Source: an uncultured Clostridium sp.
Lineage (GTDB): Bacteria; Bacillota; Clostridia; Lachnospirales; Lachnospiraceae
DNA length: 33,769 nucleotides
Direction: 5' to 3'
NCBI GenBank assembly: GCA_947178445.1
Contig: CAMWYJ010000029.1
Location: 1-33,769 of the forward strand
Shown: in pieces, positions 1,097 through 33,769 of the stretch
How the letters are laid out: every line of letters starts with the position of its first letter
How positions within the stretch are numbered: the first letter of the stretch is position 1
Position numbers and translations under genes: made by a program
The notes under the pieces: generated by a model
Told to the model about the DNA's origin: nothing
Database searches by the model: none
What the model saw: only the letters and a program-made list of their open reading frames with translations

Positions 1097-1110
1097 GTCA
1101 ATCCTTAATA

Positions 1111-5221: not shown

Positions 5222-5232
5222 TGCCATATCCT

Positions 5233-8755: not shown

Positions 8756-8798
8756 TTATACGACTCCTTGACAATGTTTTTTCTTTTCCCCATACACC

Positions 8799-10820: not shown

Positions 10821-10913
10821 TATTCCCCTGCCCCATATAACCACTATTTCTCGTAAGATAGCACTGAAAACCAGTTTTCCGCCCGTATTCCAAAAAGCGG
10901 GCTTCGCATGACC

Positions 10914-11402: not shown

Positions 11403-11425
11403 TTACAAAGTCCTCCCTATTACTT

Positions 11426-12691: not shown

Positions 12692-12704
12692 ATACATACC
12701 TCAC

Positions 12705-14161: not shown

Positions 14162-14205
14162 ATAGACTATTTCCAAATCATTTTTCGTTTACAGTTCTGA
14201 CATAT

Positions 14206-15399: not shown

Positions 15400-15427
15400 T
15401 TTCTTTATCTCCATCCTACTCATATCT

Positions 15428-16681: not shown

Positions 16682-16747
16682 ATATGTCCTCCCTTGTCTG
16701 AAAGCAGCATCTAATCTATATATATTTTCAAAATCCATATGCTTCTT

Positions 16748-17878
16748 TTAATCACTTCCAATATAATCAATATAGTTCTTTAAATTGTATAATTGATTTG
16801 TTTCTTTTATAATTTTATCGAACTTGATCGCATCTCGATAGGCTGCCAGGTGCAAGCGCTGTAGTTCCTCGTTTGCTTCTAAATCTGTATAATTTACCGC
16901 CAAAGCATTCAGATCAATATAAATAAGGCTTTCTGTTGCCTGATTTATGCTGCATACTGTATGGTCATTGACCCATACACTACAAGTAAACTGGCCCTCT
17001 ATTATATTATTTAATAGCTCCATTCCGTTATCGATTTCAAACAATATCTCATCATGTTCCTTATCCCTCAAAATCATCTCTTTTCTACCATATGGTAAAC
17101 ATATCCATTTATCCCCTATCCATACTGCATTCACAAACGGGTATATCTGATAAGAATATTTCTCCTCAACACTACTTTCCAGAATCAGTCTTCCATTTAA
17201 ATCATATTCTGCAATATATGATGTACCGACATCATTCCTGTTTCCTTTACAACAAATTACATGATACCGCCCGTTACTCGCCTGTATATTCTCCAGAATC
17301 CACTTTTCTGGCTTATCTCCAAGATACATACAGGAAATTTTGTCATTTGGGTCCAGCGTGACTATTATGTTTGAATTTGATACGGGAATACAGATACATT
17401 CATCCAACACAATTGCCCTTGTCCAAAACCAATATAGAGTAAAGTTTTCTAAATCAGATAATTCCGACTGCACATCAATATATGCAACTGTGCCGTCCTT
17501 CAAATTGTACTTCAATATCTCTGATTTACTTCCAAATGCATAAAGGAACTGCCCCCGCTTTACACAACCCATTAATTCAAGGCTTTTCTTTACTGCTATT
17601 TTCTCGAAGTCAGCAGTATATAAATCATAAACATACATGGTTTCCTGGAAATGCGGAAAAACATACAGTTTATGATCACAATAGAACAAAGTGCGGTACG
17701 AGCATTCTCCCCGAGAATTCGGTATCTTCCATATACATTTTAACTCTTTGGAAAATAGATTGACCTCCATAATAAAACCACTGAGTTCAGCAACATACCA
17801 AATCCTTTCTCCATCTGTTACTTCAACCTTATGACTTAACAAATATTGATTAATCATATAATGACCCTTGCCTTTCAT
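16748..17878 (-). CDS. Uncharacterised protein, probable beta-propeller
   Basis: 376 residues. I do not recognise the family. The sequence is made of short beta-rich units with recurring aromatic-plus-hydrophobic strands (IWYVAELSGFIMEV, LYVFPHFQETMYVYDL, FLYAFGSKSEILKYNL, YIAEYDLNGRLI, WICLPYGRKEM), suggesting a seven-bladed beta-propeller. No signal peptide, so cytoplasmic. The ATG at 17878 overlaps the stop of the upstream gene as ATGA; a later ATG at 17857 is possible. It lies between the LIC12162-type transferase and the LicD gene. A carbohydrate-recognition or scaffold role is a guess. Confidence 0.65.
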   Translation of the reverse strand: MKGKGHYMINQYLLSHKVEVTDGERIWYVAELSGFIMEVNLFSKELKCIWKIPNSRGECSYRTLFYCDHKLYVFPHFQETMYVYDLYTADFEKIAVKKSLELMGCVKRGQFLYAFGSKSEILKYNLKDGTVAYIDVQSELSDLENFTLYWFWTRAIVLDECICIPVSNSNIIVTLDPNDKISCMYLGDKPEKWILENIQASNGRYHVICCKGNRNDVGTSYIAEYDLNGRLILESSVEEKYSYQIYPFVNAVWIGDKWICLPYGRKEMILRDKEHDEILFEIDNGMELLNNIIEGQFTCSVWVNDHTVCSINQATESLIYIDLNALAVNYTDLEANEELQRLHLAAYRDAIKFDKIIKETNQLYNLKNYIDYIGSD

Positions 17879-19698: not shown

Positions 19699-19742
19699 TT
19701 TATATCACCTCAAAACCTAATTTAATAATCATCTGTTAGTCT

Positions 19743-20906
19743 TCATTTACATTTTTTTGCAATAATGCGAATAATCGGCGGGTTACTCCTGCCATACGGA
19801 GCGAAGTCTCTATCTTCGCATGAATAATCTATTAAAAAACCTGCCTCAGACAGCTTTGATTCCAATTCTTCTTTTACTAGAAACCTTCTGTAATGTCCAT
19901 CATAATAAAAAGCATTGCGTCCAACCTTTTCCCCTTTCTCAAATAAGTCATCATGTATGCTTCTGACTTCTATAAAAAACATCCCCCCCACCTTCAACGA
20001 ATTATACACATTTCTTATCATCTCACTTTCCTGCTCTTCATTAATTGCATGCAAAGAAAATCTACTATAACAGTAGTCGTACTGACTTACAAACAGCGTA
20101 GATGAGCACACAAAATCATCACAAATAAAGCACAGATTTTCCATGTTATATTTTTTTTGCAATTCACTTATAACTACATCAGAAGCATCAATTGCCATTA
20201 CGTTTAATCCATTCTTTGCAAAAAAGACGCTATCTCGTCCATTTCCGCATCCAAGTTCCAACAAATTCTTATTTTTTACCATATTACTCGCAGAAAAATG
20301 AGCAAATAACGATGGTTCCTCTGGGCAGACATTGCTATTATAATATTCGTTCCAATATGTAACATCTCTATCAAAATTAGATGATTTCTTTAGTTTAAAC
20401 TTTAAAATTTCTTCAACGCATTGCTTCACTGTTATGCTTCCGTCATTATTCAAGACAAGGTCCGGTGTTTCCGGATACTCAACTTTTATATCAACTCCTG
20501 CCAAGTGCTGAATCTTTCCGTCCTCATACTGCGAATACATACCTTTTTGGTCACGCATTTTCAAAACATCCATGGGAACATCCAAAAACACTTCACAATA
20601 TACTTTATTATTTAAGCGATTCCATTGACGGACTTCCTCATACATTGCAATTGTGCAGCATATCACAATCATCCCCTGATCCGTAAGACTTTTGCATAAA
20701 AGTGCATACTTTTTTGCCCTTTTCCGTCTATCCCCATCGCTGTATCCCAACTCATCACTAACGATATTTTTTAGTATATCCCCGTCAAGCAAGATTACAT
20801 TTTCATGCTCCTTTCGCAGCTCATAATATAATCTATTTCCTACTGTCGTTTTCCCCGCCCCTGATAATCCTGTTATCCAGTATAAAATACCCTCATTCCT
20901 TCTCAT
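19743..20906 (-). CDS. CysC-like (APS kinase-type) kinase fused to class I methyltransferase
   Basis: 387 residues. Residues 1-165 resemble adenylylsulfate kinase: Walker A GLSGAGKTT at 13-21, LLDGD, LGYSDGDRR, and RDQKGMYSQYEDG near 118-131. From ~190 is a SAM-dependent methyltransferase with ELGCG at 217-221. APS kinase makes PAPS for sulfation, but no sulfotransferase or ATP sulfurylase is seen here. CysC homologues in glycan loci can act on other substrates; in Campylobacter capsule synthesis a CysC-like kinase phosphorylates cytidine diphosphoramidate. The fusion implies that phosphorylation and methylation act on one compound. AGGAAGG supports the start at 20906; the frame is open to 20933. 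Confidence 0.8.
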   Translation of the reverse strand: MRRNEGILYWITGLSGAGKTTVGNRLYYELRKEHENVILLDGDILKNIVSDELGYSDGDRRKRAKKYALLCKSLTDQGMIVICCTIAMYEEVRQWNRLNNKVYCEVFLDVPMDVLKMRDQKGMYSQYEDGKIQHLAGVDIKVEYPETPDLVLNNDGSITVKQCVEEILKFKLKKSSNFDRDVTYWNEYYNSNVCPEEPSLFAHFSASNMVKNKNLLELGCGNGRDSVFFAKNGLNVMAIDASDVVISELQKKYNMENLCFICDDFVCSSTLFVSQYDYCYSRFSLHAINEEQESEMIRNVYNSLKVGGMFFIEVRSIHDDLFEKGEKVGRNAFYYDGHYRRFLVKEELESKLSEAGFLIDYSCEDRDFAPYGRSNPPIIRIIAKKCK

Positions 20907-20951
20907 TAAATGCCTTCCTTTTCTTTTTGGCAATGTTGTCTTAATAGTTTT

Positions 20952-22013
20952 TTACAATACTACTTTTTTATATACGCGTATAAATTCATCTGTAATCCGC
21001 TCATTTCCAATATTAATTCTGATATATTTATTTAATTTACACGCTATTAATATGCCATTCTCTTTAAATGCCTCATATGTCGCTTTTAAATCCTTCTCAC
21101 ATGGAATCAGCAAAAAATTAGCATGACTATTCACATACAAAATATTATTTTCAGAAAGTCTTTTTTCTAAATACTTTTTTTCTCTTCTGTAGTCCGAAAA
21201 CAACTGTTCAAGAATATCTGTCCGCTGCATCAGCTTTTCTCCAAATTTTAACGAAATTGCACTTACGGCAGCCGGAGCCGCAATTCTTTTTACATCATAT
21301 ATAATGTCCTCATTTGCTGCCAAAAAACCTAACCTGACTCCGGCCAAACCCATTATTTTGGAGAATGTCCTTAAAACAATTAGATTGTTGTATTGCAAAA
21401 TTTTACTTATTACGGATGTATCATAGAATCCATAGTAAGCTTCATCCACAATCACGAGCGTACCTGTTTTTTCTGTATATTCAAGTAACTGCATTAATTT
21501 ATCAGGTTCAATAATAGCTCCCGTTGGATTATCCGGATTTACTATTATTGCCATTTTTGCTCCCTTTTTTATCTCCTTCATATACTTGTCAAACGGAAAT
21601 TCAAATTCCTTCTTATCATCCAGCTCATAATCAACCAGTACAGCTTCTGCGCCATACATAGTGGTATACACACCATACATTTCAAAGGTTGGATTAGTCA
21701 TAATGACCCTGTCATTTTTATCAACATATACTTCAAAAATCATTTTTATAGCACGATCAGATCCATTTGTAACAAATATGTTTTCTCTGGGTATATTCAG
21801 TCTATCTGCTATTGCTTCTGTACATTGTCTCTGATTGGGATATGTTGCCAGACAGTTGCTGTCAATTTCACCAAGTACATCTTTAATGAATTCCTCCGGT
21901 AGTCCATCAATGCTTTCATTCCCGTCCATTCGAATATACTGTGTTCTATCTAAATCACTGAAATAATTGGCCGTACGAATTACATGCTTATATGTATCTT
22001 TTAATTGCTCCAC
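20952..22013 (-). CDS. HisC-like (class I/II) PLP aminotransferase
   Basis: 353 residues. Fold-type I aminotransferase of the histidinol-phosphate aminotransferase/threonine-phosphate decarboxylase type: NPDNPTG at 159-165, DEAYYGF at 190-196 and FSKIMGLAGVRLGF, with the PLP lysine at 219. The rest of a histidine operon is absent, and sugar aminotransferases of the LegC/DegT type are a different family, so the substrate is probably an amino-acid-like or phosphorylated small molecule used to decorate the glycan. GTG at 22013 is preferred because GGGGGTG sits just upstream, two bases after the previous stop; an upstream GTG at 22031 would overlap it. Confidence 0.8.
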   Translation of the reverse strand: MEQLKDTYKHVIRTANYFSDLDRTQYIRMDGNESIDGLPEEFIKDVLGEIDSNCLATYPNQRQCTEAIADRLNIPRENIFVTNGSDRAIKMIFEVYVDKNDRVIMTNPTFEMYGVYTTMYGAEAVLVDYELDDKKEFEFPFDKYMKEIKKGAKMAIIVNPDNPTGAIIEPDKLMQLLEYTEKTGTLVIVDEAYYGFYDTSVISKILQYNNLIVLRTFSKIMGLAGVRLGFLAANEDIIYDVKRIAAPAAVSAISLKFGEKLMQRTDILEQLFSDYRREKKYLEKRLSENNILYVNSHANFLLIPCEKDLKATYEAFKENGILIACKLNKYIRINIGNERITDEFIRVYKKVVL

Positions 22014-22015
22014 TT

Positions 22016-22864
22016 TTACACCCCCGCACACCTTTTACATATTTCACTTAAAGATTTAATATTTTCGTGTTCTTTTCGAATTTGCAATATTCTTTCACAG
22101 TTCCATAATTCTTTTAATGAACATGTATTTGCGTCTCCATAAATCAGACTGCCTGACCAATCTGTAGAACATGCTATTGCTTTTCCTTCCCAATTAATTA
22201 TCATCCTGTCTAATTCTATACATGGTATTTTTTTAGCTGATGCAATATTTTGGGTTACTGAAAAGTTGCAATTATCAGGTTTTATTCCCGAAGCATTATG
22301 GATTGGGTTAATCCATAATTCACTTGCGTATGGTCCAAACATACTTTTAAAATCATCCCGTTCATTGCAGTTAATTGTACTCTCGGCAAAGTATCCAATT
22401 AATTTGCATTTAATGTTCCTCTCTTTAATATAATTGCTCACTTTAACAAAATTCTCTTTTACCTGATGAAATACATCATTGTTAGTAATCTTTTTGTATG
22501 TCTCGCTCGTTGCGGCATGAATAGAAAATTTTAAACTGTCTAATCCTTCGTCAATCACCGGAAATATTACTTCCGGTGCGGCCAAAGCACCATTCGTATC
22601 CAGATAAATATAGGTGTATCCTTTCCTTTTTGCTACACCAACATAATTTGCCAGGCCTTTACATAAGCACGGCTCTCCCATTCCATGAAAGCTTATTTTT
22701 CTTGCACCATTGTCATACGCTTCCGAAATGAGTCTTAGCATCAATTGTTCATCTATGTAGCCTCTTTTTCTTTTGCTGACAAGGCTCCCGCAAAAAAAGC
22801 ATTTATTATTACAACAATTCGTAGCTTCAATCATTATCTCTGTCGGAAACTTTTTCTCATACAT
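22016..22864 (-). CDS. Radical SAM protein with C-terminal cysteine cluster
   Basis: 282 residues. Radical SAM signature CX3CX2C with C18, C22 and C25 (CNNKCFFC), binding a [4Fe-4S] cluster, followed by KISFHGMGEPCL. A SPASM-like C-terminal region has CIELDRM, ACSTDWSG and the end EICKRC, likely for a second cluster. Such proteins modify sugars, peptides or small molecules by radical chemistry in the cytoplasm. The ATG at 22864 has GGGGAGG eight bases upstream; the frame is open to 22924. It overlaps the methyltransferase gene by eight bases. The substrate is unknown; context points to the activated sugar or its side group. Confidence 0.85.
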   Translation of the reverse strand: MYEKKFPTEIMIEATNCCNNKCFFCGSLVSKRKRGYIDEQLMLRLISEAYDNGARKISFHGMGEPCLCKGLANYVGVAKRKGYTYIYLDTNGALAAPEVIFPVIDEGLDSLKFSIHAATSETYKKITNNDVFHQVKENFVKVSNYIKERNIKCKLIGYFAESTINCNERDDFKSMFGPYASELWINPIHNASGIKPDNCNFSVTQNIASAKKIPCIELDRMIINWEGKAIACSTDWSGSLIYGDANTCSLKELWNCERILQIRKEHENIKSLSEICKRCAGV

Positions 22865-23621
22865 TGATATTACCTCCCCAAAGGTCATCCGGAAATTCAA
22901 AATGCACTGTCGGCTTGCCATCATACTCGTTAGTCAACGCCTTTCTAATTGCAGCCACACTCATGCAAAGCTTATCATATTTTACCACGGTTCCATCAGC
23001 GGGGGCATGCCAGTAGCCAAATGCTTCAATCAAATCCGCTGGATTATCTTTTAATCCTAAAATCATTTTTAAAAAGTCCTCAATATTAAATACAACATAA
23101 TTTGCAACTTCATTGTCGTCCAATCTCTGATACGCTTCATTAACATTATTTATTGTTTCATTATTAGTTAATCTTACTGAAATAACCAAATACCCCCCTT
23201 TTTTTACTTTTGCCCAGCATGATTTCAGCATGCCTGTAACATCTATATTAAAGTCAATACAGCCCAGGGAGGTAACAATATCATATTGCTTATCTTCATT
23301 GTATCCAGCTATATCTTCGCATATGTACTGATGAGGAATGGGAAGACAATTGTGCTCACTTGCATACTCAATCTCTTTCTTATTACAATCAATACCTGTA
23401 TAATACTTAATATTAAAATTATCGCTCAACGCCTTCCCGAGTCCACCACACCCACACCCTGCGTCTAGCAGTTCAAACCCTTGGGCATATCTGTCAATAA
23501 TCCTTTTTAATATCTTTTTTTCTGAGGGATAAAACTCTTCCCATGTCATCCTTTTCTCACTATAATAATTAAAAAAGCTTTCACTCTCATATTTAATATT
23601 TGTTTTTTCATTCTCTCTCAT
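22857..23621 (-). CDS. Class I SAM-dependent methyltransferase
   Basis: 254 residues. Methyltransferase motif I is LLDAGCGCGGLGKAL near 56-70, with YTGIDCNKKEIEYA and DIVTSLGCIDF following. It probably methylates an oxygen, nitrogen or carbon of the unusual sugar or its substituent. The ATG overlaps the stop of the CBS-nucleotidyltransferase gene by one base (TAATG), and the 3' end overlaps the radical SAM gene, so translation of these three is probably coupled. Specificity cannot be told from sequence. Confidence 0.8.
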   Translation of the reverse strand: MRENEKTNIKYESESFFNYYSEKRMTWEEFYPSEKKILKRIIDRYAQGFELLDAGCGCGGLGKALSDNFNIKYYTGIDCNKKEIEYASEHNCLPIPHQYICEDIAGYNEDKQYDIVTSLGCIDFNIDVTGMLKSCWAKVKKGGYLVISVRLTNNETINNVNEAYQRLDDNEVANYVVFNIEDFLKMILGLKDNPADLIEAFGYWHAPADGTVVKYDKLCMSVAAIRKALTNEYDGKPTVHFEFPDDLWGGNINV

Positions 23622-24673
23622 TATATTGTCCCATACCTTTTCTTCATTTTCTCTAGTTCATCCAGTTGTCCCATATCATACCAGTCGTTTCCGTCAATTG
23701 TAACCTGTCCGATTTTTTCACCTGCATTTAAACATCTCTGAATCAATTCAGGCATATCAATTTTTTCGGAATCATCTATATAATCCAGTAATTTTGCATT
23801 ACATAGATACATACCGGTATTCACTTTATACTCAACCCGAGGTTTTTCACACAGACAAATGACATTGCCATTATCAGATATTTCTACTGTTCCGTAGGGC
23901 ACACAGTACTCTCTATTGGCCAAAACCATCGTCATAATATTACCCTTTTTTTTGTGTTCTTCCCAAATAAAGTAATAGTCCGTGTCGATAACAACATCGC
24001 AGTTTGTCACAAAAAAATTATCCCTACACACCCCCTTTGTATACTTAATTCCGCCTGCAGTTCCTAAGAAAGAAGGTTCTTCAATAAAATATAGATCACT
24101 GTACGAACTATCTTCCTTAAAATAAGCTTCAATTAACTTTTTTTTATAATTAATAATGACATACTTTTTATAGCAGCCATATTCTTCAAATTTGTCAAAT
24201 ATACGCTCTAATATCGTCTTTGAGCCAATGGGAATTAAAGGTTTGGGTATTATTTCCGTATAGGGTTTTAGGCGTGATCCAAACCCGCCGGCCATTATGA
24301 CAACAGGAATACTCTCTTCAATCTTTCGGATAGATTCCTTGTTATTTTTCAGTCTTTCTATCCTGATGATTTTCATTTGATTATCCACAATTGGAATCGC
24401 GGTCAGATCGTTCTCTATCATATAATCTTGATAATTGGCGCTATCATTTTCTTTGAAAAACTTTGGACTATAATTAATGATCTTACAGACGCTTTCGTTC
24501 AATGCCCCCCCCTTAAGCAAATGCCTTCTTACGTCTCCATCAGTCATAGAACCTTTTAATACATAATCGCTAACCAAAAATACTGTTTTAGATATCCCCT
24601 GATCAATCACTCTCATCGCGTCTTCAATTGTCATATTTTCGTTGATAAGCATTGTTTTTTCTAATTCAGTCAT
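23621..24673 (-). CDS. Nucleotidyltransferase with N-terminal CBS pair (PtmE-like)
   Basis: 350 residues. The N-terminal ~115 residues carry two CBS repeats (TIEDAMRVID, SMTDGDVRRHLLKGG; then LTAIPIVDNQMKII). The nucleotidyltransferase domain follows with VIMAGGFGSRLKPYT (AGGFGSRL at 128-135), KPLIPIG, FFVTNCDVVID and DMGQLDE. The same domain order is known in PtmE, the glucosamine-1-phosphate guanylyltransferase of Campylobacter legionaminic acid synthesis. With the LegB-like and CMP-sugar synthetase genes upstream, a GDP-sugar role is reasonable but not proven. The ATG at 24673 with GGGA upstream is chosen over a longer open frame to 24703. Confidence 0.85.
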   Translation of the reverse strand: MTELEKTMLINENMTIEDAMRVIDQGISKTVFLVSDYVLKGSMTDGDVRRHLLKGGALNESVCKIINYSPKFFKENDSANYQDYMIENDLTAIPIVDNQMKIIRIERLKNNKESIRKIEESIPVVIMAGGFGSRLKPYTEIIPKPLIPIGSKTILERIFDKFEEYGCYKKYVIINYKKKLIEAYFKEDSSYSDLYFIEEPSFLGTAGGIKYTKGVCRDNFFVTNCDVVIDTDYYFIWEEHKKKGNIMTMVLANREYCVPYGTVEISDNGNVICLCEKPRVEYKVNTGMYLCNAKLLDYIDDSEKIDMPELIQRCLNAGEKIGQVTIDGNDWYDMGQLDELEKMKKRYGTI

Positions 24674-24719
24674 ATCATTTCCCTTATATATCATCCGGCA
24701 CACTTTGCCGGTTTTAGGT

Positions 24720-25697
24720 CTATTCGCAAAAAAACCGGTCTATTCCCTTCAGTCTTAAGGTGCAATTTTCACATATAGTATTTGACAATGTCTCATGATC
24801 CAAAAATTTTTTTCTATATTGTTTATAGCTTTCACTATTCCACGCGTTTTTGAGATTAAAATCCTTTTTCAAGTCATAAAAAACGCAATTGGTATCATAC
24901 GCTTCACAACATGGCACAACCTCCAGATTAGCATTAATATACATTGTGTCAAACAGTAAAGGGCAGATAAAATCTGATTTTATTTCTGTTTGCGTATCAT
25001 CAATAACCTGATAATCCTTGATAAACTGTTCATCACAACTGAGCCTCTGCAGCATCACAGGAATAAATACAATATCATCTACATATTCACCAAATATTTT
25101 TTTGAAATCTTCCTGTATTCCAATTGTCTTTTTAGTAATTACACAGGAAATGGAGGTAGCAACTTTTAGTGAATTGTCTTTGATATAATTATGCATACAT
25201 TTAAGATTATCAAATACTTTATCAAAGTCATCTGACCCATGCAGCTCACGATACATGCTTCTGTTTGTCGCATTGATTGATATTCTGATGCTGTCAAGCC
25301 CTGCATCCAGCACTTCTTTCATCCTGTCCGGCGTGGCAAAAACTCCGTTTGTAGTGATAAATGTATATGCAAAACCTGCTTTTTTAGCATAAGAAATAAT
25401 CTCCGGCAAATCCTTGTATAAGAAAACTTCTCCCGCTAAATAGAAACCAATTTCTTTTTTTCCAATTCCATGCTCTTGTGCCATATCAATCAATGCTATT
25501 GCATCCTTTTTTTTCATGGCCGTCAAAAAAGGGCTGCTCGGTGCATATTTACCATGAAACGGACAGAACACACAGGATTGATTACATGTACTATTTAACT
25601 CGATATTTAACGATTGAGGCACCGGTGGATTTTCACAAAAATTTATAACTTTTCCCAACCGCTCCTTCATATGCTGTTTCATAATTCCTTCACTCAA
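24720..25697 (-). CDS. Radical SAM/SPASM-type protein
   Basis: 325 residues. CX3CX2C with C38, C42 and C45 (CNQSCVFC); C-terminal cysteines in VVPCCEAYDTNC and ICENC suggest an auxiliary cluster. It shares the plan of the radical SAM gene at 22016-22864 (sub-motifs such as GLDSIRISINAT against GLDSLKFSIHAA, and FKKIFGEY against FKSMFGPY), so the two are probably paralogues acting on related substrates. TTG at 25697 is taken as start because GGGAGG lies nine bases upstream; ATG 25682 is the alternative. Confidence 0.85.
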   Translation of the reverse strand: MSEGIMKQHMKERLGKVINFCENPPVPQSLNIELNSTCNQSCVFCPFHGKYAPSSPFLTAMKKKDAIALIDMAQEHGIGKKEIGFYLAGEVFLYKDLPEIISYAKKAGFAYTFITTNGVFATPDRMKEVLDAGLDSIRISINATNRSMYRELHGSDDFDKVFDNLKCMHNYIKDNSLKVATSISCVITKKTIGIQEDFKKIFGEYVDDIVFIPVMLQRLSCDEQFIKDYQVIDDTQTEIKSDFICPLLFDTMYINANLEVVPCCEAYDTNCVFYDLKKDFNLKNAWNSESYKQYRKKFLDHETLSNTICENCTLRLKGIDRFFCE

Positions 25698-25751
25698 TTT
25701 TACTATCCTCCCAGTAATCCGTTTTGTTGGAACAAATCCGAAAAATACGCT

Positions 25752-26447
25752 TTAGCCATTATATGAATAACACTTTATAATTTGTTCCGCCAGGAAAAAA
25801 TCAAACTCTGTATCTATGTCCACAGATTTTTGAGGACTCATAATGTACGCATAACTATCCTTACCATATAACTCAAACTGCATGTCCGAATAATTAACCC
25901 TGCATATATAAATTGCGCCATTTAACCGATAATATTGAGGTAAATCCTGTCTTCTCTTATCTCTTATCTCCGGGCTGATAAAACCCTCTAAGCAGTTGTC
26001 TTCCCGTAGTGTATTACATAATAATGGCGAAGTCTCCATTTCGCATACACTGATAACGGATCGTGCCTGTTTTTCTTTAAATATTTCATATGCGTTAATA
26101 ATATCGGCTGCTGTCCTTAATGGAGAAGTCGGCTGCAATAACGTCACCATATCAAACTGTATTCCCTGCTCCCGATACCCATTTAATACTTCCCTTACTA
26201 CTCCCCAGGATGATGCCCGATCTGACGAATTTTCCGAACTTCTCAAAAAGGGAACCTTTGCGCCACAAGATATGGCAATATCCGCATATTTCTCTGAATC
26301 TGTGGAAACCATTACTTCATCAAAACATCCGCTTTTAATTGCTGCCTTTATCGAATATTCCATCAGCGGTTTCCCGTTCAAATTCCTTATATTTTTATCA
26401 ACTAATCCTTTTGAACCGCTCCTTGCGGGTATAATCGCCAAATTCAT
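25752..26447 (-). CDS. CMP-sugar synthetase (acylneuraminate cytidylyltransferase family)
   Basis: 231 residues, the usual length of NeuA/PseF/LegF enzymes. Typical features: AIIPARSGSKGLVDKNIRNL at the N-terminus, GKPLMEYSI, VSTDSEKYADIA, TLLQPTSPLRT and the late VDIDTEFDF. The family couples CTP to a nonulosonic acid such as sialic, legionaminic or pseudaminic acid in the cytoplasm. No sialic-, legionaminic- or pseudaminic-acid synthase (NeuB family) or hydrolysing epimerase is present in the window, so the sugar is either supplied elsewhere or differs from the standard ones. GAGG lies about ten bases before the ATG. Confidence 0.85.
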   Translation of the reverse strand: MNLAIIPARSGSKGLVDKNIRNLNGKPLMEYSIKAAIKSGCFDEVMVSTDSEKYADIAISCGAKVPFLRSSENSSDRASSWGVVREVLNGYREQGIQFDMVTLLQPTSPLRTAADIINAYEIFKEKQARSVISVCEMETSPLLCNTLREDNCLEGFISPEIRDKRRQDLPQYYRLNGAIYICRVNYSDMQFELYGKDSYAYIMSPQKSVDIDTEFDFFLAEQIIKCYSYNG

Positions 26448-26490
26448 TTGCTCTTTTCCTCTGAACTCTATGGATTTTTATGTTATACTT

Positions 26491-27474
26491 CTATATATTA
26501 TAAATATCCGACTTATAACAATTCATATTTTGACTTATCCACTCAATAGTCTCCCCCAGTCCCTGGGCAAGCGTATATTTTGGTCTCCAGTCTGTCAACT
26601 GCTTAATCTTTTCATTAGAGCCCAGCAATCTACTGACTTCGCTTTTTTTCGGTCTAAGCCTTTGTTCTTCACAAAAGGTTTTGGCTTTAGGATTAATCTG
26701 CTTGATTATTTCATTTGCAAGCTCACCAATTGATATTTCTTTTTGAGATGCTATATTGATTTCTTCTCCGACCGTATTGTCTGATTCTGCAATAGCAATA
26801 AAACCTTCCGCCGTATCCTTTACATAGTTAAAATCTCTGGTCGGTGTGAGCGCTCCCAACCTGATTTCCGTCTTTCCTGCTAAAAGTTGCGTAATAATCG
26901 TAGGAATTACCGCTCTTGCAGACTGTCTTGGACCATATGTATTAAAAGGTCTGACTATGACTACAGGTAGCTGAAAGCTTCTATAAAAACTCTCTGCAAG
27001 CCTGTCAGCACCGATTTTGGTCGCCGAGTATGGAGACTGCCCCTGAAAGGGATGTTTTTCATCTATCGGAACATACTGAGCTGTACCATAGACCTCGGAT
27101 GTCGATGTTATCATTATCTTTTCAGTCTCCAGCTCCCGGGCCGCCTGCAATACATTGAGTGTGCCCTTGATATTGGTATCAACATAAGAATCCGGAGAAT
27201 GGTAACTGAATGGGATGGCAATCAGTGCTGCGAGATGAAAAACCATATCTATCCCTTTCATAGCTTCCCTCACCCCATTGGGATCCCTTATATCGCCGCA
27301 AAATATATTAATTTCAGATAGTTTATCTTCCGGTAAAGTGTCAAGCCATCCCCATCTATTAAAGGAATTATAAAATGTAAATGCCTTTACATCATACCCC
27401 TTTTCCAACAGCATCTCTGTTAAATGGCTTCCAATAAAGCCATCTGCGCCTGTAACCAGAACCGTTTTCGCCAT
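26491..27474 (-). CDS. legB: NAD-dependent 4,6-dehydratase, LegB type
   Basis: 327 residues and the first gene of the long minus operon. Extended SDR: TGADGFIG (8-15) binds NAD, TSE at 125-127, YSATK with catalytic Y149 and K153. Long stretches (FYNSFNRWGWLDTLP, AALIAIPFSYHSPDSYVDTN, RPFNTYGPRQSARAVIP, LGALTPTRDFNYVKDT) match the LegB family as I know it; in Campylobacter legionaminic acid synthesis LegB acts on GDP-GlcNAc, giving a 4-keto-6-deoxy sugar. ATG 27474 with GGAAGG upstream is preferred over GTG 27489. About 130 bases of leader separate it from an intrinsic terminator, so expression probably depends on read-through. Confidence 0.85.
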   Translation of the reverse strand: MAKTVLVTGADGFIGSHLTEMLLEKGYDVKAFTFYNSFNRWGWLDTLPEDKLSEINIFCGDIRDPNGVREAMKGIDMVFHLAALIAIPFSYHSPDSYVDTNIKGTLNVLQAARELETEKIMITSTSEVYGTAQYVPIDEKHPFQGQSPYSATKIGADRLAESFYRSFQLPVVIVRPFNTYGPRQSARAVIPTIITQLLAGKTEIRLGALTPTRDFNYVKDTAEGFIAIAESDNTVGEEINIASQKEISIGELANEIIKQINPKAKTFCEEQRLRPKKSEVSRLLGSNEKIKQLTDWRPKYTLAQGLGETIEWISQNMNCYKSDIYNI

Positions 27475-27590
27475 TGCTATACCTTCCACTCTACAATATA
27501 ATTAAATTCCGTATTCGTCCTCATTATCCTATTTTCAAATCATAAAAACCTTTTTATACCAATTACATCTATTGTCTAATTGACATTCAA
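27475..27590 (-). other. Leader of the minus operon between terminator and first gene
   Basis: About 115 AT-rich bases transcribed after the leader terminator and before the legB start. Apart from the GGAAGG ribosome binding site near 27485 I see no conserved structure, gene or second promoter with both boxes. In the opposite operon the equivalent distance is only about 25 bases. Confidence 0.5.
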
Positions 27591-27669
27591 AAATCCCAAA
27601 TAAAAACTATCGTTGCACCAAAAATGCAACGACAGTTCCTCGTCAATTCTTTGTGCCTCCATGCAACCC
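27591..27669 (-). promoter_or_regulatory. Conserved operon leader block (minus operon copy)
   Basis: Read on the minus strand, this block opens with GGGTTGCATGGAGGCACA and ends with GGGATTT after a terminator. It is about 85% identical (roughly 67 of 79 positions) to the block at 29534-29611 on the plus strand, which precedes the other operon, so the two are inverted repeats at the outer borders of the invertible segment. The block starts about 31 bases outside the left recombination site. Conserved sequence before a terminator is what one expects for an attenuator or for loading a processive antiterminator; which one is not shown. Confidence 0.75.
27602..27636 (-). terminator. Intrinsic terminator in the minus-operon leader
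   Basis: On the minus strand a 12-base-pair stem (ACTGTCGTTGCA with TGCAACGATAGT, one G-U pair, loop TTTTTGG) is followed by a T run at 27602-27606. The G-U pair forms only in the minus-strand RNA. It lies between the promoter and the first gene. Compared with the plus-operon copy at 29566-29602, two pairs change together (T-A against C-G), which supports selection on the RNA stem. Confidence 0.8.
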
Positions 27670-27680: not shown

Positions 27681-27706
27681 ATTCTATGATACTTATTTCA
27701 TAGAAT
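27681..27706. repeat. Extra inverted half-site outside the left recombination site
   Basis: ATTCTATGA at 27681-27689 and TCATAGAAT at 27698-27706 are exact inverted repeats. The right arm is part of the left recombination site, so three half-sites lie in a row here. No matching third half-site was seen next to the right site. It could be an accessory recombinase binding site or a leader RNA hairpin. Confidence 0.55.
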
Positions 27707-27722
27707 GAACCATTCTACGAAA
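27696..27722. repeat. Left recombination site (palindromic, core AAC)
   Basis: TTTCATAGAATG, core AAC, CATTCTACGAAA. The arms are inverted repeats with one mismatch. In the reverse orientation the site matches 27 of 29 positions of the site at 29481-29509. The inner arm (towards the recombinase gene) is identical in the two sites; the outer arm differs. The asymmetric core gives it direction. Confidence 0.8.
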
Positions 27723-27747
27723 AGAAGAAATATAAATATTTCTATGT

Positions 27748-27764
27748 CGATATAAAATATATCG
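27748..27764. repeat. Perfect palindrome at the predicted transcription start
   Basis: CGATATA, AAA, TATATCG: a 7-base perfect inverted repeat with a 3-base centre, placed where transcription from the 27770-27798 promoter should begin. This is a typical position for an operator. The binding protein is unknown; the recombinase itself is one candidate. Confidence 0.5.
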
Positions 27765-27769
27765 GCATT

Positions 27770-27798
27770 ATTTTATACTATTTAATACAGACTTGCAA
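27770..27798 (-). promoter_or_regulatory. Candidate sigma-A promoter inside the invertible segment
   Basis: On the minus strand TTGCAA (27793-27798), a 17-base spacer and TAAAAT (27770-27775) form a good -35/-10 pair. Transcription would start near 27763 and run left through the recombination site, the leader and the terminator into legB. It is the best promoter I find in the segment; no comparable one faces right before 29481. Confidence 0.6.
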
Positions 27799-28059
27799 TA
27801 ATTTAATAAATATTTCCGAAAGTCACCTGGTAAATGAGTCTTTTTACGCCGAAATTATATTAAAAAATTATCTATATACTGATATGACTAATCTTCTATG
27901 ATTGACAAAACGTATCTGCGTAACCGCCCATTACTTACCATGAGCCTTTTTCGCCCGTTTTTTGCTTCCCAGATTATACTATACTCAAAACTCAAAACAA
28001 TATCAATAGGAATTTATTTCCCAAACTATAACTTAGTCCTGTTCGGCCCTCATGGCATT

Positions 28060-28109
28060 TTATGTATAATGGATGTGGTTGCTAATTTGCGAAATCTCAT
28101 TATACATAA
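28060..28109. repeat. 12-base inverted repeat upstream of the recombinase gene
   Basis: TTATGTATAATG (28060-28071) and CATTATACATAA (28098-28109) are perfect inverted repeats separated by 26 bases. Each arm contains TATAAT, one per strand, without a clear -35 box. It may be an operator, an arm-type recombinase site or paired promoters. The rest of 27799-28292 is AT-rich and holds no gene I would call. Confidence 0.5.
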
Positions 28110-28292
28110 TCTAATTTCTGCCAGCCATAAACATTGTCTTCCTGTTTCTATATATCAGTTCTCTTGTTTCTTTCATAAGCCACATCATTTTTTTCAAATT
28201 GGCAATAATAACCAGCTGGAACAGATATTTTATAGTCAGTTTTAGGGTCAAAATATCAAATGTACACATCAGCCAACGAAAGGAGATAAAGT

Positions 28293-29450
28293 ATGGCAAG
28301 ACATGGAGAAAATATTCGGAAAAGAGCGGATGGAAGATGGGAAGGACGTTATAGGGTATTTGATGAAAACAGAGGAAATATATACCGTTCCGTATATGGC
28401 GGCACATATGAACAGGTAAAGGAAAAACTGCTCAGAGCCCGGCTGGAACTTACAAATGAAGTAGAAAACCGGGCACCGGCAGAGACTGGTTGCACAAGGA
28501 GGGATGCAGGGCCTTGCACTGCGATATTGTTCTCACAGGTGGCGCAGGAGTGGCTTGCGGATATTGCAGACAAGCGGAAATATTCAACCTATATAAAATA
28601 TGAAACGATTTACAGAACACATCTTGCCAAAGCAGTCGGTTCCTGTAAATTCTCTGATGTGGCCGCTTCGGAAATACAGGCAAATATTCTTGAGCACTTA
28701 TCAGAGGCTTCCCTTTCTCAAAATCTGCAAAAAAATATCTGCTGCGTAGCGAATCAGATCATGATCTTTGCTGGCAGAAAATATTCCATCAATATTACTT
28801 TGTTGGAAAAATCCGGCATAAGGCAGAAGAGCAAACCGGTTAAGACATTTTCAAAGACAGAACAGGCTAAACTGCTCTCCAGTATCTATAGAAAGACAGA
28901 CACATTCAAGATTGCCACATTGCTCTGTCTGTATACGGGCTTACGACTTGGAGAATTATGCGCGCTCAAATGGACTGATTTTGATTTCAAGAACATGTCA
29001 TTGACAGTGAACAGGACTGTGCAGCGAATTGCAGTTCAAAACGGCAAGGACAAGACCTTTTTGCTGGAGACGGACCCCAAAAGTGAAGATTCCAAAAGAA
29101 TAATTCCCCTGACCGCTGAAATTGCAGAACTTCTTGTACGGTTGAGAGGCATCCGGCCCTATGTGTTTGGCGGAGAAAAGCCGTTAGAGCCGAGAACAAT
29201 GCAGTATCGATTCAAAAAGCAACTGACAGAGGCGGGCATTGATGACAGAAATTTTCATATCCTTCGCCATACCTTTGCAACGAATTGTATTGAAAATGGC
29301 ATGGATGTAAAAGCCTTGAGCGAGATTCTGGGACATTCTGATGTGAAAATAACCTTGAACCGCTACGTACACCCTACTATGGATTCTAAAAGAAAGCAGC
29401 TTGGGCGGCTCCCGGACTTTTATGGTCAGATTCTTGGTCATGTTTCCTGA
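28293..29450 (+). CDS. Tyrosine recombinase (probable DNA invertase)
   Basis: 385 residues. The N-terminal part (RKRADGRWEGRYRVFDENRG) looks like the arm-binding domain of Tn916-type integrases, followed by a core-binding SAM-like domain (about 78-180). The catalytic set is complete: R218 in YTGLRLGELCALKW, K263, H322 and R325 in HILRHTF, H348 in LGHSDV, and Y358 in NRYVHP. It lies between two inverted sites, so inversion of its own segment is the likely reaction. AAAGGAG sits seven bases before the ATG. The right site begins 30 bases after its stop. No excisionase or other mobile-element gene is near. Confidence 0.9.
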   Translation: MARHGENIRKRADGRWEGRYRVFDENRGNIYRSVYGGTYEQVKEKLLRARLELTNEVENRAPAETGCTRRDAGPCTAILFSQVAQEWLADIADKRKYSTYIKYETIYRTHLAKAVGSCKFSDVAASEIQANILEHLSEASLSQNLQKNICCVANQIMIFAGRKYSINITLLEKSGIRQKSKPVKTFSKTEQAKLLSSIYRKTDTFKIATLLCLYTGLRLGELCALKWTDFDFKNMSLTVNRTVQRIAVQNGKDKTFLLETDPKSEDSKRIIPLTAEIAELLVRLRGIRPYVFGGEKPLEPRTMQYRFKKQLTEAGIDDRNFHILRHTFATNCIENGMDVKALSEILGHSDVKITLNRYVHPTMDSKRKQLGRLPDFYGQILGHVS

Positions 29451-29480
29451 AAAGACTTGATTTTATGCTTTAAAAAGAGT

Positions 29481-29509
29481 TTTTCGTAGAATGGTTCATT
29501 CTACGAAAA
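29481..29509. repeat. Right recombination site (perfect palindrome, core GTT)
   Basis: TTTTCGTAGAATG, core GTT, CATTCTACGAAAA. The arms are perfect 13-base inverted repeats. The core is the reverse complement of the left site's AAC, so the two sites are inverted relative to each other. In RNA it forms a strong hairpin but has no T run after it, so it is not a terminator. Confidence 0.85.
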
Positions 29510-29533: not shown

Positions 29534-29611
29534 GGGTTGCATGGAGGCACACAGAATAGACGAAGACCGTCGTCGCATTGTTGGTGCGACGACGGTTTTT
29601 TTATGGGATTT
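29534..29611 (+). promoter_or_regulatory. Conserved operon leader block (plus operon copy)
   Basis: Same block as 27591-27669 in reverse orientation: GGGTTGCATGGAGGCACA, a terminator, then GGGATTT. It begins about 30 bases outside the right recombination site, the same spacing as on the left. No promoter is visible between the recombinase stop and this block, so in the present orientation this operon should be silent apart from read-through from the recombinase gene. Confidence 0.75.
29566..29602 (+). terminator. Intrinsic terminator in the plus-operon leader
   Basis: A 12-base-pair GC-rich stem (ACCGTCGTCGCA with TGCGACGACGGT, loop TTGTTGG) followed by seven T at 29596-29602. It lies directly before the ribosome binding site of the first gene (AAGGAGG at 29612-29618), an unusual position for a terminator unless it is regulated. 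Confidence 0.85.
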
Positions 29612-29627: not shown

Positions 29628-31118
29628 GTGAATATCGACTATATCGTGGTACAGGCCGGAGGTAAGGGAACCCGGCTGGAATATCTGACAAAAAATAAAC
29701 CCAAGGCGCTGGTGCCTGTGGAGAATCTTCCCATGCTTTTTCATCTGTTTCGCAAATATCCGGATAAAAAATACGTGATTATTGCTGATTACCACAAAGA
29801 GGTGCTTAGGGAGTATCTGGCAAGTTTTGCAAAGGTTAAGTACCAGGTGGTTGATGCGGAGGGAACGGGAACCTGTTCCGGCGTCAGGCAGGCCATACAG
29901 CAGCTGCCCCACAATGTCCCGTTTATGCTGGTGTGGTCTGACTTAATTCTCCCCCAGGATTTCATTCTTCCCCAAGAAGAAAAGGATTATATCGGTATTT
30001 CACAGACGTTTCCCTGCAGGTGGAGTTATCAGAACGGCAAACTGGTGGAGGAAAAATCCACCGAGAAGGGAGTTGCCGGTTTCTTTCTGTTTACCGAGAA
30101 GTCCAAGCTGCAGGACGTACCGGTAAACGGCGAACTGGTACGGTGGATGCAGGAAAAACACTTTGTGTTCGAGGAAGTTGGACTGGCGGGGACCAGAGAG
30201 TTTGGTCTGCTGGAAGAATATAACAAACTGGCACAGGAAAAGTGCAGACCCTTCAATAAGATGACCTTTGACGGGGACGTGGCGATAAAAGAGGGAATCG
30301 ACGAGCAGGGGCGCAAGCTGGCTGTCAGGGAATGCGCCTGGTATGAGGCGGCGCGGGGGAAAAACATAACCATACTGCCAAAAGTATACGGCACAAACCC
30401 GCTGCGGATGGAGCGGATCAAGGGAGAGAATATTTACGAGTGTCAGCTGGCCTACGAACAGAAACGGGAGATTCTGCAGAAACTGGTGGAGGCGCTCAAA
30501 AAGCTACATGACGCGGAGCAGGTACCTGCAGACACTTTCAGTATCAAGGAGGCATATTACAACAAAACCATACAGCGTCTCAGTGCCATTCGGGATCTGG
30601 TGCCCTTTGCGGACAGGAAAGTGATCACCGTCAACGGGAAACAGTGCCGGAACGTATATTTCTATAAGAGGGAACTGGAAAAAGCTTTGGAGCGGCTGCA
30701 CTGTGACAGTTTCTGCCTGATTCATGGGGACTGCACCTTTTCCAACATGATGCTGCGGGAGGACGGAACGCCGGTACTCATTGACCCCAGAGGATATTTC
30801 GGACATACGGAAATCTATGGTGATCCCATGTATGACTGGGCAAAACTGTACTACTCCCTGGTGGGGAACTATGACCGTTTCAATCTGAAGGATTTCCGTC
30901 TGGATATTGGTGAGGAAGAAGTGACGCTACAGATCACCTCCAACCAGTGGGAAGACATGGAGGAAGATTTCTTCCGTATGACGGGTGTAGACAGAGCCGG
31001 AATTAAGCTGCTGCATGCGGTGATCTGGCTCTCTCTCACCACCTATGCCTGGCAGGACTATGATTCGATATGTGGTGCGTTTTATAATGGGCTTTATTAT
31101 CTGGAGGATGTGTTATGA
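29628..31118 (+). CDS. Nucleotidyltransferase fused to APH/choline-kinase-like kinase
   Basis: 496 residues from GTG 29628, nine bases after AAGGAGG; the longer frame from 29532 runs through the terminator and is not used. Residues 1-~220 are a sugar-phosphate-type nucleotidyltransferase (GGKGTRL 11-17, NKPKALVPVE). Residues ~225-496 are an aminoglycoside-phosphotransferase/choline-kinase-like domain with the catalytic HGD at 366-368 and IDPRG with metal-binding D386. The fusion could phosphorylate an alcohol or sugar and then activate it with a nucleotide, giving a CDP- or other NDP-linked group. It is the first gene of the plus operon, with higher GC than most of the window. Confidence 0.8.
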   Translation: MNIDYIVVQAGGKGTRLEYLTKNKPKALVPVENLPMLFHLFRKYPDKKYVIIADYHKEVLREYLASFAKVKYQVVDAEGTGTCSGVRQAIQQLPHNVPFMLVWSDLILPQDFILPQEEKDYIGISQTFPCRWSYQNGKLVEEKSTEKGVAGFFLFTEKSKLQDVPVNGELVRWMQEKHFVFEEVGLAGTREFGLLEEYNKLAQEKCRPFNKMTFDGDVAIKEGIDEQGRKLAVRECAWYEAARGKNITILPKVYGTNPLRMERIKGENIYECQLAYEQKREILQKLVEALKKLHDAEQVPADTFSIKEAYYNKTIQRLSAIRDLVPFADRKVITVNGKQCRNVYFYKRELEKALERLHCDSFCLIHGDCTFSNMMLREDGTPVLIDPRGYFGHTEIYGDPMYDWAKLYYSLVGNYDRFNLKDFRLDIGEEEVTLQITSNQWEDMEEDFFRMTGVDRAGIKLLHAVIWLSLTTYAWQDYDSICGAFYNGLYYLEDVL

Positions 31119-31693
31119 TAGACTATTTTGAGCGGCAATTAAAGGAGTTTGACCATTCTATTCATTCTCTAGATGAGAAGGTTTTTGAGAGATGGGTGAA
31201 TGAGGCGGTGGAAACGCTGAGGTCCAGGCATAAGCTCATTGTATCCGGTCTGGGGAAAAACGTTCCCATATGCGACAAGTTTGTGGGGTCCATGATCTCC
31301 ATGGGGCTGGACGCATACTTTTTGCACACTAACTCCGCAGTACACGGGGATATGGGCGTGGTCAAGGACGGCGATATGGTGATACTGCTCACAAAGAGCG
31401 GGGAGACGGCGGAGTCCATATATTTGGCCGGATTGCTGAAGGAGCGCAGGGTAAATATGTGGCTGCTGACTTTTGTGAAGGACAGTACATTGACCCGGGA
31501 GATTCCCAACTCGGTGGTGCTTGACCTGATGCATGAGGGCGATCTGTGGAATATTGTGCCAAACAATTCAACCACGATGAACCTGATCGTACTGCAGGGG
31601 CTGGCTATGATGGTGGCTAATAAGATGGGGCTTAAGCTGGAGGATTTCAAGAGGAACCACCCGGGGGGAGCGATAGGGCAGCTGTTAAAATAA
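31115..31693 (+). CDS. SIS-domain sugar-phosphate isomerase (KpsF/GutQ-like, no CBS)
   Basis: 192 residues. A SIS domain with LIVSGLGKNVPICDKF, LLTKSGETAE (TKSGETAE at 93-100) and the KpsF-like end HPGGAIGQLL. KpsF/GutQ enzymes interconvert ribulose- and arabinose-5-phosphate, but this protein ends where their CBS pair would start, as stand-alone SIS isomerases do. The ATG overlaps the upstream stop as ATGA (31115-31118), so it is coupled to the kinase-nucleotidyltransferase gene: isomerise, phosphorylate, activate is a plausible order for one small pathway. The substrate is not determined. Confidence 0.8.
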   Translation: MIDYFERQLKEFDHSIHSLDEKVFERWVNEAVETLRSRHKLIVSGLGKNVPICDKFVGSMISMGLDAYFLHTNSAVHGDMGVVKDGDMVILLTKSGETAESIYLAGLLKERRVNMWLLTFVKDSTLTREIPNSVVLDLMHEGDLWNIVPNNSTTMNLIVLQGLAMMVANKMGLKLEDFKRNHPGGAIGQLLK

Positions 31694-31761
31694 TACCAGA
31701 ACAGCAATGAATTGCAACAACTATGACAAAGAGGCGGATCAAGTTGGAAGGAACAGACACA

Positions 31762-32940
31762 ATGCATAATTACGGACTTGAAGAAATGTTAAAGTATGCA
31801 ATGAGTGAAACGGCATATAAAATACTAATTTGGGGAGCCTGTGAAAAAAGTGATTATGTATTAAACTTTTTTAAAGATAACCATGTAGAAATATATGGAT
31901 ATATAGACAGCGCTTACAAGGATAAGTGTGAATATAGGGGATATAAGGTTTATGATAGTAATATCATAAAAAGTCAGAAATTTTATGTATATGTTGCTTT
32001 AGAAAATACATATAATGATATTCTGTTTTTCCTGAACGAGTGTGGATACAAGGAATACCTAGATTTTTGGTATCCCTGCCGTATGGTACGTCTTTGCAGT
32101 TATCAGCCATATTCAGATTATTATGGAAATGAATATGAAGGATATGGCTATGATGTGAAAATAAGCTTGAAAAGGGGTGGGAAGTGTTTTCTTGAAAAAG
32201 GTATAGAAATGAGCAATACCGTTACGATAGAAGTTTTTGATGATTCCGAATTAAGCGTATTAAGCGAATGCAGTATAGGGGAAGGATGCAGTGTCCGTGT
32301 ATGCAACAACAGCTATGTGAAAATATACAACAAGTGCAGGCTTTCAAAGTATTGCACACTCGACAGCAAGCGCGGCAGTGCAATACAATTATGGGGGGGT
32401 GGTGATTTTAGTGAAAGAACAACTTTCAGCGCATTAAGAAACAGCACAATCAGACTCGGATCAAATTGCGAATCTTGGAAATCAAATAATCAGTTCATTA
32501 CGGATTATGGCGGCATGATTTGTATAGGAGAAAAAACAACGTTTAACTATAACTGCATATGTATAGCGGTTCAAAATTCACAATTGTTTATCGGAAACGA
32601 CTGTATGTTTTCCTATGACGTAGTTGTAAGAACTGGCAACCACCATAATCTGTTTGATTTAAAAGAAAATAAAAATTTAACGGCTTGTAAGCAACATACT
32701 ATACGAATAGCAGATCATATATGGCTAGGACATAAAGCCAATATTTTTAGCGGTGCTGATATAGGTAATGGCTGTGTTATAGGCGCAAATTCTTTTATAA
32801 ACCAACAATTTCCATGCAATTGCAGCATTGCAGGTAATCCTGCAAAAATATTGAATAGGAATATTGCATGGAGAAGAGAGAATTATCCATATTATGAAGA
32901 CTATAAAGATTTCGAGGAGTATGATTACAGAGATGATTAA
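31762..32940 (+). CDS. Left-handed beta-helix acyltransferase with N-terminal Rossmann-like domain
   Basis: 392 residues from ATG 31762 (GGAAGG ten bases upstream; ATG 31723 has no ribosome binding site). Residues ~18-108 are the same Rossmann-like module as in the minus operon (KILIWGACEKSDYVL, GYIDSAYKDK). The rest carries many hexapeptide-type turns and ends like an O-acetyltransferase: IRIADHIWLGHKANIFSGAD, IGNGCVIGANSFI, SIAGNPAKIL. It should acetylate a sugar hydroxyl or amine using acetyl-CoA. The hexapeptide region is longer and less regular than usual. Base composition is clearly more AT-rich than the two genes before it. Confidence 0.85.
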   Translation: MHNYGLEEMLKYAMSETAYKILIWGACEKSDYVLNFFKDNHVEIYGYIDSAYKDKCEYRGYKVYDSNIIKSQKFYVYVALENTYNDILFFLNECGYKEYLDFWYPCRMVRLCSYQPYSDYYGNEYEGYGYDVKISLKRGGKCFLEKGIEMSNTVTIEVFDDSELSVLSECSIGEGCSVRVCNNSYVKIYNKCRLSKYCTLDSKRGSAIQLWGGGDFSERTTFSALRNSTIRLGSNCESWKSNNQFITDYGGMICIGEKTTFNYNCICIAVQNSQLFIGNDCMFSYDVVVRTGNHHNLFDLKENKNLTACKQHTIRIADHIWLGHKANIFSGADIGNGCVIGANSFINQQFPCNCSIAGNPAKILNRNIAWRRENYPYYEDYKDFEEYDYRDD

Positions 32941-33769
32941 TAAACAAAAAGCATTTTACCTCAAAATAAATCGAAGCGAAGATTTTGCGTTACGCAATTT
33001 AAGCCGCTGGATAGATGCGGCTTATTTGGCAAAAGCAGATTGCTATATTGTCTGTGACCGAGAAGACCTAGTTGAAAAGATTAAAGATACGATTTTACTA
33101 TCAGGGAGTGCGGAATTTATCAAAAGCGGGAAATCAGCGGATATGGAGACAATTGTAAATCAGATAGCCAGTCGTAATTGGATAAACGCAGCATATGCCC
33201 ATTTGACAACTTTCTGGCATGCGGAGGATATGGGATATGATTACTTTTGGAACATAGATGCTGATGATACGCAATTGTGCCTGTCCGCAGATAGAACACA
33301 AGAGTTGTTTCAATGTGTTGAGAGTTATGCAGAAGAAAACAGTATAGACTGTTTTTCTCTTGATATGTGGAGTTCAAGATTTAACGGAATGCACTGGTCC
33401 TTCGGTATTACATATACAAAAGTAAGAGCAGATTGGCGAAGCTTGTTATTACAGCATTGTAGCGATGTTGAATACAAACAATTTGGCACAGATGATAACA
33501 ACAATGTAGACTGGTTTTTCACATATTTAAAAACCTGTACTGCTTTGAGAATAGAGACGTTCTATTTGGAAAACCTAAAATTTATTCATTATTCCAATGA
33601 TTTTTTTCTAAAGCCTGTCGGCTCAGGATTTTATCACTGGAAGGGGGGAAAACTATTATATCCTATATTATACTACTGTTTCGGGATGAAAGAGCTTGGA
33701 CTCTATCCTATTGCGTCTGATGTCATAAAGCTGGATATCCATATTCAAGATGATGAGGCCAAAGATGCC
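32921..33769 (+). CDS. Putative GT-A-like transferase (5' part, runs off window)
   Basis: An open frame of 283 codons with no stop up to the window end. It starts at ATG 32921, inside the end of the acyltransferase gene, with GAGGAG immediately upstream; ATG 32933 is the alternative. Features: NWINAAYAHLTTFWHAEDMG, then YFWNIDADDTQ with a DAD metal-site-like triad at about 109-111, and DNNNVDWFFTYL further on. The local pattern of aromatic residues and DAD recalls the DUF6492-like protein at 155-1096, but I do not claim homology. The product is probably a sugar transferase of the plus-strand glycan operon. Confidence 0.65.
   Translation, partial: MITEMINKQKAFYLKINRSEDFALRNLSRWIDAAYLAKADCYIVCDREDLVEKIKDTILLSGSAEFIKSGKSADMETIVNQIASRNWINAAYAHLTTFWHAEDMGYDYFWNIDADDTQLCLSADRTQELFQCVESYAEENSIDCFSLDMWSSRFNGMHWSFGITYTKVRADWRSLLLQHCSDVEYKQFGTDDNNNVDWFFTYLKTCTALRIETFYLENLKFIHYSNDFFLKPVGSGFYHWKGGKLLYPILYYCFGMKELGLYPIASDVIKLDIHIQDDEAKDA

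Follow-up and report, generated by a model that had tools for sequence, protein, structure and literature searches.

The locus

The window analysed here is a 33,769-nt stretch of DNA from an uncultured Clostridium sp. of the Lachnospiraceae (contig CAMWYJ010000029.1, positions 1 to 33,769), in which two divergent sets of glycan genes are separated by a segment encoding a tyrosine recombinase. The left operon (155..27489, minus strand; from the ORF list and Pfam) contains 22 open reading frames (ORFs) of at least 80 aa – an earlier note on this DNA had given 23 genes – and is the one that the predicted promoter faces in the assembled orientation. Epimerase, CTP_transf_3, Radical_SAM, NTP_transferase, LicD, glycosyltransferases, RgpF, WbsX and Glyphos_transf are among its Pfam matches, and the ORFs scanned (all but 10914-11402 and 22016-22924) are mostly of glycan type, with 17875-19698 and 16748-17911 giving no Pfam match. 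The right operon (29628..33769, plus strand; identified in the same way) runs to the contig end and is not faced by the promoter; it encodes an NTP transferase-kinase fusion, a SIS protein, a hexapeptide-type protein (below the Pfam cut-off) and one product with no Pfam match. ORF directions and Pfam assignments thus bear out the divergent glycan operons that had been proposed on either side of the segment.

The recombinase gene (28293..29450, plus strand) is complete, encodes 385 aa with Phage_integrase and Phage_int_SAM_3 matches, and points toward the right (‘silent’) operon in the assembled orientation. Its closest solved sequences, by phmmer against the PDB, are the ‘Int protein’ entries 6en0, 6emy and 6emz, which we take to be Tn1549 Int, the best stretch covering only residues 307-373. 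The gene is flanked by two predicted palindromic recombination sites: a left site, TTTCATAGA-ATGAACCAT-TCTACGAAA (27696..27723), with 15 of 18 arm positions agreeing with the family consensus, and a right site (29481..29508), with 16 of 18, in which the left core is inverted. The sites are 28 nt each, inverted, and match at 27 positions; their cores, ATGAACCAT on the left and ATGGTTCAT on the right, are inverted and match each other exactly. The inverted palindromic pair around a complete recombinase gene, and the inversion of its asymmetric cores, had both been noticed earlier and are confirmed by these measurements.

A family of recombinase loci with matched, inverted cores

We assembled a set of 46 loci, consisting of the window and 45 homologues of its recombinase at 37-74% identity (73% being the highest value by tblastn), from collections holding one genome per species. 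A scan of genome contigs yielded 11 of these loci, ten from Lachnospiraceae and one from Enterocloster bolteae. Recombinase matches at E <= 1e-80 occur in 14 of the 397 genomes of the family draw, the window’s own genome counted; matches passing that threshold were found in 20 of 138 genomes of the genus of L016, a close relative (four of them already known), and one of 25 other genomes of the window’s own genus passed 1e-60, at 39% identity. A family search centred on the L016 genome, seemingly much the same draw, gave nothing closer, and an IMG/VR protein search gave no relative of the recombinase. Dropped before the count of 46 were L047, which shares a contig with L018, and two loci of the window’s own genome, L065 and L066, the latter a distant homologue (37% over part of its length) with no inverted repeat of at least 15 nt. 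Two homologues whose matched stretch is interrupted by an in-frame stop (G416, L053; G524, L140) were kept.

Several loci have peculiarities of their own. In L068 (1452-7891) the recombinase homologue is broken near the HxxR motif by sequence containing three ORFs that read as serine-recombinase-like; L017 carries about 2 kb (7144-9158) with a 565-aa stop-free frame between the recombinase gene and the right site, inside the invertible segment and absent from the window and L016; and genome G391 has four cassettes (L050, L056, L057 and L058) beside different genes, two of which share a core.

Sites were sought as TTTCGCAGA and TCTGCGAAA separated by 6-10 nt, with at least 13 of 18 arm positions matching and the right-site scan reaching up to 300 nt beyond the recombinase gene (2300 nt for L017 alone). 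Two sites were found in 37 of the 46 loci, or 36 after removal of L143, a spurious hit at a contig start; for L132 an inverted-repeat call was discarded and the motif pair used instead. The spacer is 9 nt in all 36 loci, and the two 9-nt cores of a locus are inverted-identical in 32 and within one mismatch in all 36, including the window; identical cores in direct orientation occur in none of the 36, nor do cores that are palindromic within one mismatch. Between loci the cores vary, with 29 distinct left cores among 37 loci and sharing in 26 of 1332 ordered pairs (the spurious L143 still counted in both figures). Cores that differ between loci yet match within a locus form the pattern that site-specific inversion requires, and the occurrence of a predicted site pair around the recombinase gene in 36 of 46 loci is beyond chance. 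The earlier note had named loss of the pair from recombinase-bearing relatives as evidence that would count against inversion; the relatives mostly have both sites. Both were not found in ten loci (L019, L022, L023, L026, L052, L063, L139, L140, L141 and L143), five of which have the right site only (L019, L026, L052, L063 and L143); the contigs of L026 and L143 end shortly before the recombinase gene starts, and the inverted repeats of L139-L141, at most 17 nt long, fall outside the counting rule.

Candidate arm-type repeats lie near both ends of the recombinase gene. The right pair, GGTCA-N7-GGTCA (29424..29440, plus strand), is arm-like by spacing only, and 30 of 46 loci carry GGTCA-N5-9-GGTC repeats at their right end, against 0.06 expected from mononucleotide shuffles. 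The left pair, AGTCA-N7-GGTCA (28234..28250, plus strand), has an imperfect first copy, leaving one exact copy in the window, and a GGTCA pair 11-12 nt apart is present upstream of the recombinase gene in 32 of 46 loci. We infer that these repeats are arm-type binding sites.

Arm-like GGTCA repeats, the ‘Int protein’ matches and the many different genes that this recombinase family adjoins would all suit a small integrative element of the Tn916/Tn1549 type, or a remnant of one, with inverted ends and no switching function. Such an element is nonetheless very unlikely, given that the cores of all 36 loci are inverted, allowing one mismatch, and that direct cores, which would permit excision, are seen in none; moreover, every site is a palindrome with both arms complete, the segment’s ORF list contains no transfer gene, and the predicted promoter points out of the segment. 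An inversion cassette is the reading that we prefer.

The predicted outward promoter

A predicted promoter, TTGCAA-17-TAAAAT (27770..27798, minus strand), faces the left operon from just inside the left site. An alignment of the window with L016, L017 and L068 spans this element together with a downstream stretch containing the conserved CCGATATA, and the element is placed 45-48 nt from the site in these close relatives; the stretch from promoter to site (27724..27769, minus strand) is presumably the start of the transcribed leader, with a start point predicted near 27763. The left-facing promoter had been proposed before, and what stands of the proposal is its conservation and a family-wide bias in promoter score; for the window alone a consensus scan is not significant (8 sites against 7.1 expected from shuffles), and its top outward hit is another site, 255 nt from the recombination site, to which we prefer the conserved element as the candidate promoter. 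Over 36 loci, the mean best score within 125 nt of the left site is 10.49 outward, 8.32 in the other direction and 7.53 for shuffles, with the outward score higher in 33 loci, equal in three and lower in none. For the whole stretch to the recombinase gene the corresponding means are 10.62, 8.86 and 8.44, with the outward score higher in 30 loci, equal in three and lower in three.

Between promoter and recombinase gene, the window has about 293 nt (27916..28208, coordinates taken from the alignment) that are absent from L016, L017 and L068; by eye, an inverted TTATGTATAATG / CATTATACATAA pair lies within them. This extra stretch, the one-position difference between the sites and the single orientation seen would fit a former switch that has lost flipping and is now locked in the orientation that places the left operon under the promoter. 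We think such a loss very unlikely, however, because the recombinase is of full length and retains its domain matches, and the two cores match exactly. A cassette still able to invert is the reading preferred here, although a leader search of this assembly gave no contig with an alternative junction.

Leaders outside the sites

Just outside each site is a copy of the same 33-nt leader block (27637..27669, minus strand; 29534..29566, plus strand), the two being inverted and 91% identical. They lie 26 nt (left) and 25 nt (right) from the sites, so that the equal spacing described earlier holds as a near-equal one. Each leader includes a terminator-like hairpin followed by a T-run, as judged by sequence and fold (27602..27640, minus strand; 29562..29602, plus strand). 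Compared with shuffles, the folds have z-scores of -5.5 and -5.2 in the window, -1.6 in L016 and -2.9 in L068, and by eye the pairing is maintained despite sequence changes. These hairpins could stop transcription in either orientation, and their presence in both window leaders, together with a recombinase gene that reads toward the ‘silent’ operon, suggests that the mechanism may exceed a simple promoter flip. A search of 26900-30200 against Rfam gave no match at E values up to 1. They are not general, since terminator-like hairpins lie outside the sites in seven left and three right flanks of 36, some of which are probably the ends of converging genes.

The full leader is confined to these cassettes as far as the searches extend, with four copies at three loci, each just outside a cassette site. 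A 28-nt leader pattern allowing up to three mismatches was absent from the 396 other family-draw genomes and from the 137 other genomes of the L016 genus (overlapping sets), and in IMG/VR it was accepted in L068 only. A second IMG/VR hit, L067, was rejected as being without the leader’s hairpin context, and short-pattern hits with 1-3 mismatches (L015, L070-L084) were rejected when the rest of the leader proved absent by eye. At 20 other loci of the right operon’s first gene (in 18 further genomes) there was no leader, the best match having 9-12 mismatches in 26 positions; two of these loci, L119 and L121, offer hardly any sequence upstream of the match. A possible leader peptide (ATG GAG GCA ...) was considered and dropped, because no ribosome site was apparent and an indel distinguishes the copies.

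Leaders controlled by LoaP have an intrinsic terminator ahead of the operon, preceded by a UNCG-type recognition hairpin, in the portions of the source that describe them (PMC12691694). By sequence and fold the window leaders share the intrinsic-terminator feature, and by eye no UNCG-type hairpin was seen in the leader folds, so that control of this type is only a possibility. Elsewhere in this genome a second NusG-domain gene lies on contig 21, beside genes that read as a capsule locus. At L062 (548-1803) two tandem NusG-like genes follow the promoter side of the cassette, one matching PF02357 and the other without a Pfam match at 1e-5 but similar to the first by BLAST clustering, a layout that recalls the antiterminator-first arrangement of Bacteroides capsule loci.

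Flanking operons in relatives

Beginning about 20 nt beyond the site, the flank to the right of the window’s segment matches the promoter-side flank of L016 at 90.2% identity across 2167 nt, and the left first gene of L016 is 93.6% identical to the window’s right first gene. In L016, therefore, the same leader and operon start lie under the promoter, whereas in the window they lie on the side that it faces away from. The element itself is less alike, at 74% over 1247 nt in its recombinase part and 87% over 68 nt in its promoter part. With flanks at 90% and recombinase parts at 74%, the two junctions do not represent a single allele captured in both states; the element has a different history from its flank, and one way to read the pattern is exchange at the site or close to it. 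Comparison with relatives in search of a flipped segment, which had been suggested as a check, thus yields homologous operons at opposite ends in the window and L016, but not one allele in two orientations. In L068 the promoter, site and leader stand in promoter-facing order, followed beyond the leader by a stretch like the start of the right operon’s first gene and then by a gene that reads as aminotransferase-like.

The main competitor of a two-operon choice is an ordinary on/off inverton serving one operon, with the other a chance outward neighbour under its own promoter. Classifying the loci by crude ORF calls, using the first gene of at least 110 aa on each side, lends this some weight, as 28 of 46 loci are one-sided, with 15 outward on both sides, one inward on both and two lacking data. 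It accounts poorly for the window, where both operons carry the same leader at near-equal distances from the sites, where the homologue of the right operon is found on the promoter side in L016, and whose full leader is absent elsewhere in the 396 family-draw and 137 L016-genus genomes (overlapping). We therefore consider it unlikely here and favour selection between two operons. By Pfam, L016, L017 and L138 have glycan-type genes on either side, whereas one flank of L144 encodes a sigma factor and an ABC transporter; another ten of the 15 two-sided loci had their flanks scanned partly at most. The two-sided layout, as predicted from these calls, recurs in the window’s closest relatives and in L138 (48% identity), yet is in the minority.

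The same families of near genes occur on both sides across loci. Propeller-like genes (by reading) number four on the promoter side and six on the other, and helicase-like genes (by reading) one and three. TnpB-like genes are first or second outside a site in 12 of 46 loci, three on the promoter side and nine on the other (L018:7331-8761, L048:9623-11062 and L053:6051-7394, and also L024, L025, L049, L050, L051, L054, L055, L128 and L134). The three TnpB-like proteins scanned all match Cas12f1-like_TNB, and in an alignment of all 12 the RuvC catalytic residues appear lost at the positions that we take to be catalytic. These genes may encode TldR-like regulators that have lost nuclease activity and are controlled by an invertible promoter.

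Discussion

That the segment is an invertible promoter cassette is strongly supported by sequence comparison, and an either/or choice is the best reading of its layout. We propose that 27696-29508 (1.8 kb) would be a self-contained inversion cassette, in which the encoded recombinase would recombine the two inverted palindromic sites and so flip the segment. The conserved promoter just inside one end would fire outward, reading the left glycan operon in the assembled orientation and the right operon after inversion, and the cassette would thereby act as an either/or selector between two surface-glycan operons. We hold it probable that the window contains such a cassette, with its own recombinase and an outward promoter selecting between the two operons; inversion in this strain, activity of the promoter and exclusive expression are what we infer from it, and there could be other promoters for either operon.

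A more elaborate proposal, distinctly unlikely in our view, is that the cassette is a portable exclusive-choice module. Inversion would move the promoter together with the start of the 5′ leader, and this leader start would allow only transcripts born at that promoter to get past the matching terminator of either flank, where read-through from the recombinase gene toward the silent operon would be stopped. The sites would also serve as joints for swapping whole glycan operons with their leader between genomes, and such exchange would explain flanks that are 90% alike beside a recombinase gene that is 74% alike.

Phase variation is usually seen as a matter of on or off, whereas a cassette that carries its own recombinase and chooses between two glycan operons would ensure that some coat is produced at all times while its identity changes, a point relevant to the pressure that immunity and phages exert on Firmicutes. 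The signature – fixed arms, variable matched cores, a recombinase inside and an outward promoter – makes such switches easy to find and test in Lachnospiraceae.

Comparison with known systems

In Salmonella, Hin is a serine recombinase, and the promoter serves one side, with the other phase set by a repressor. Recombinases occasionally lie inside the invertible segment, as Hin does, according to the relevant portions of a published account (PMC5903667), and the window shares this placement. The same portions describe Mpi of Bacteroides fragilis as one serine-type master recombinase acting on at least thirteen scattered regions (PMC5903667). The B. fragilis invertible promoters resemble the proposed cassette in controlling surface polysaccharides by inversion, but Mpi acts on scattered regions while the window’s recombinase sits inside its own segment.

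Among Clostridia, inverton group 139 has 33 invertons, 32 from Clostridia, nearly all near a recombinase of tyrosine-type invertase group 35, in the section of the source devoted to it (PMC11892184). This group may be the family to which the window’s cassette belongs; unlike for the window, that section mentions no choice between two operons (PMC11892184). Tn916/Tn1549-type integrases provide the closest solved recombinase sequences, and the window’s candidate repeats are arm-like by spacing, but its sites are arranged for inversion.

The earlier note knew of no described case of the two-sided layout, and in a search of the open-licence literature we recognised no description of a two-sided glycan layout. 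The statement is too strong for two-sidedness as such, because of a surface-protein precedent in Campylobacter fetus. Its sap locus, reportedly described by Dworkin and Blaser in 1996, is said to have a single promoter on an invertible segment, with this one promoter serving opposed surface-layer genes; the segment is also said to carry other cargo. The sap system thus parallels the proposed cassette in its single invertible promoter, and differs in that its targets are S-layer proteins whereas the window’s cassette is flanked by glycan operons. As in the C. fetus type, the window has target genes that point away from a single promoter segment on either side.
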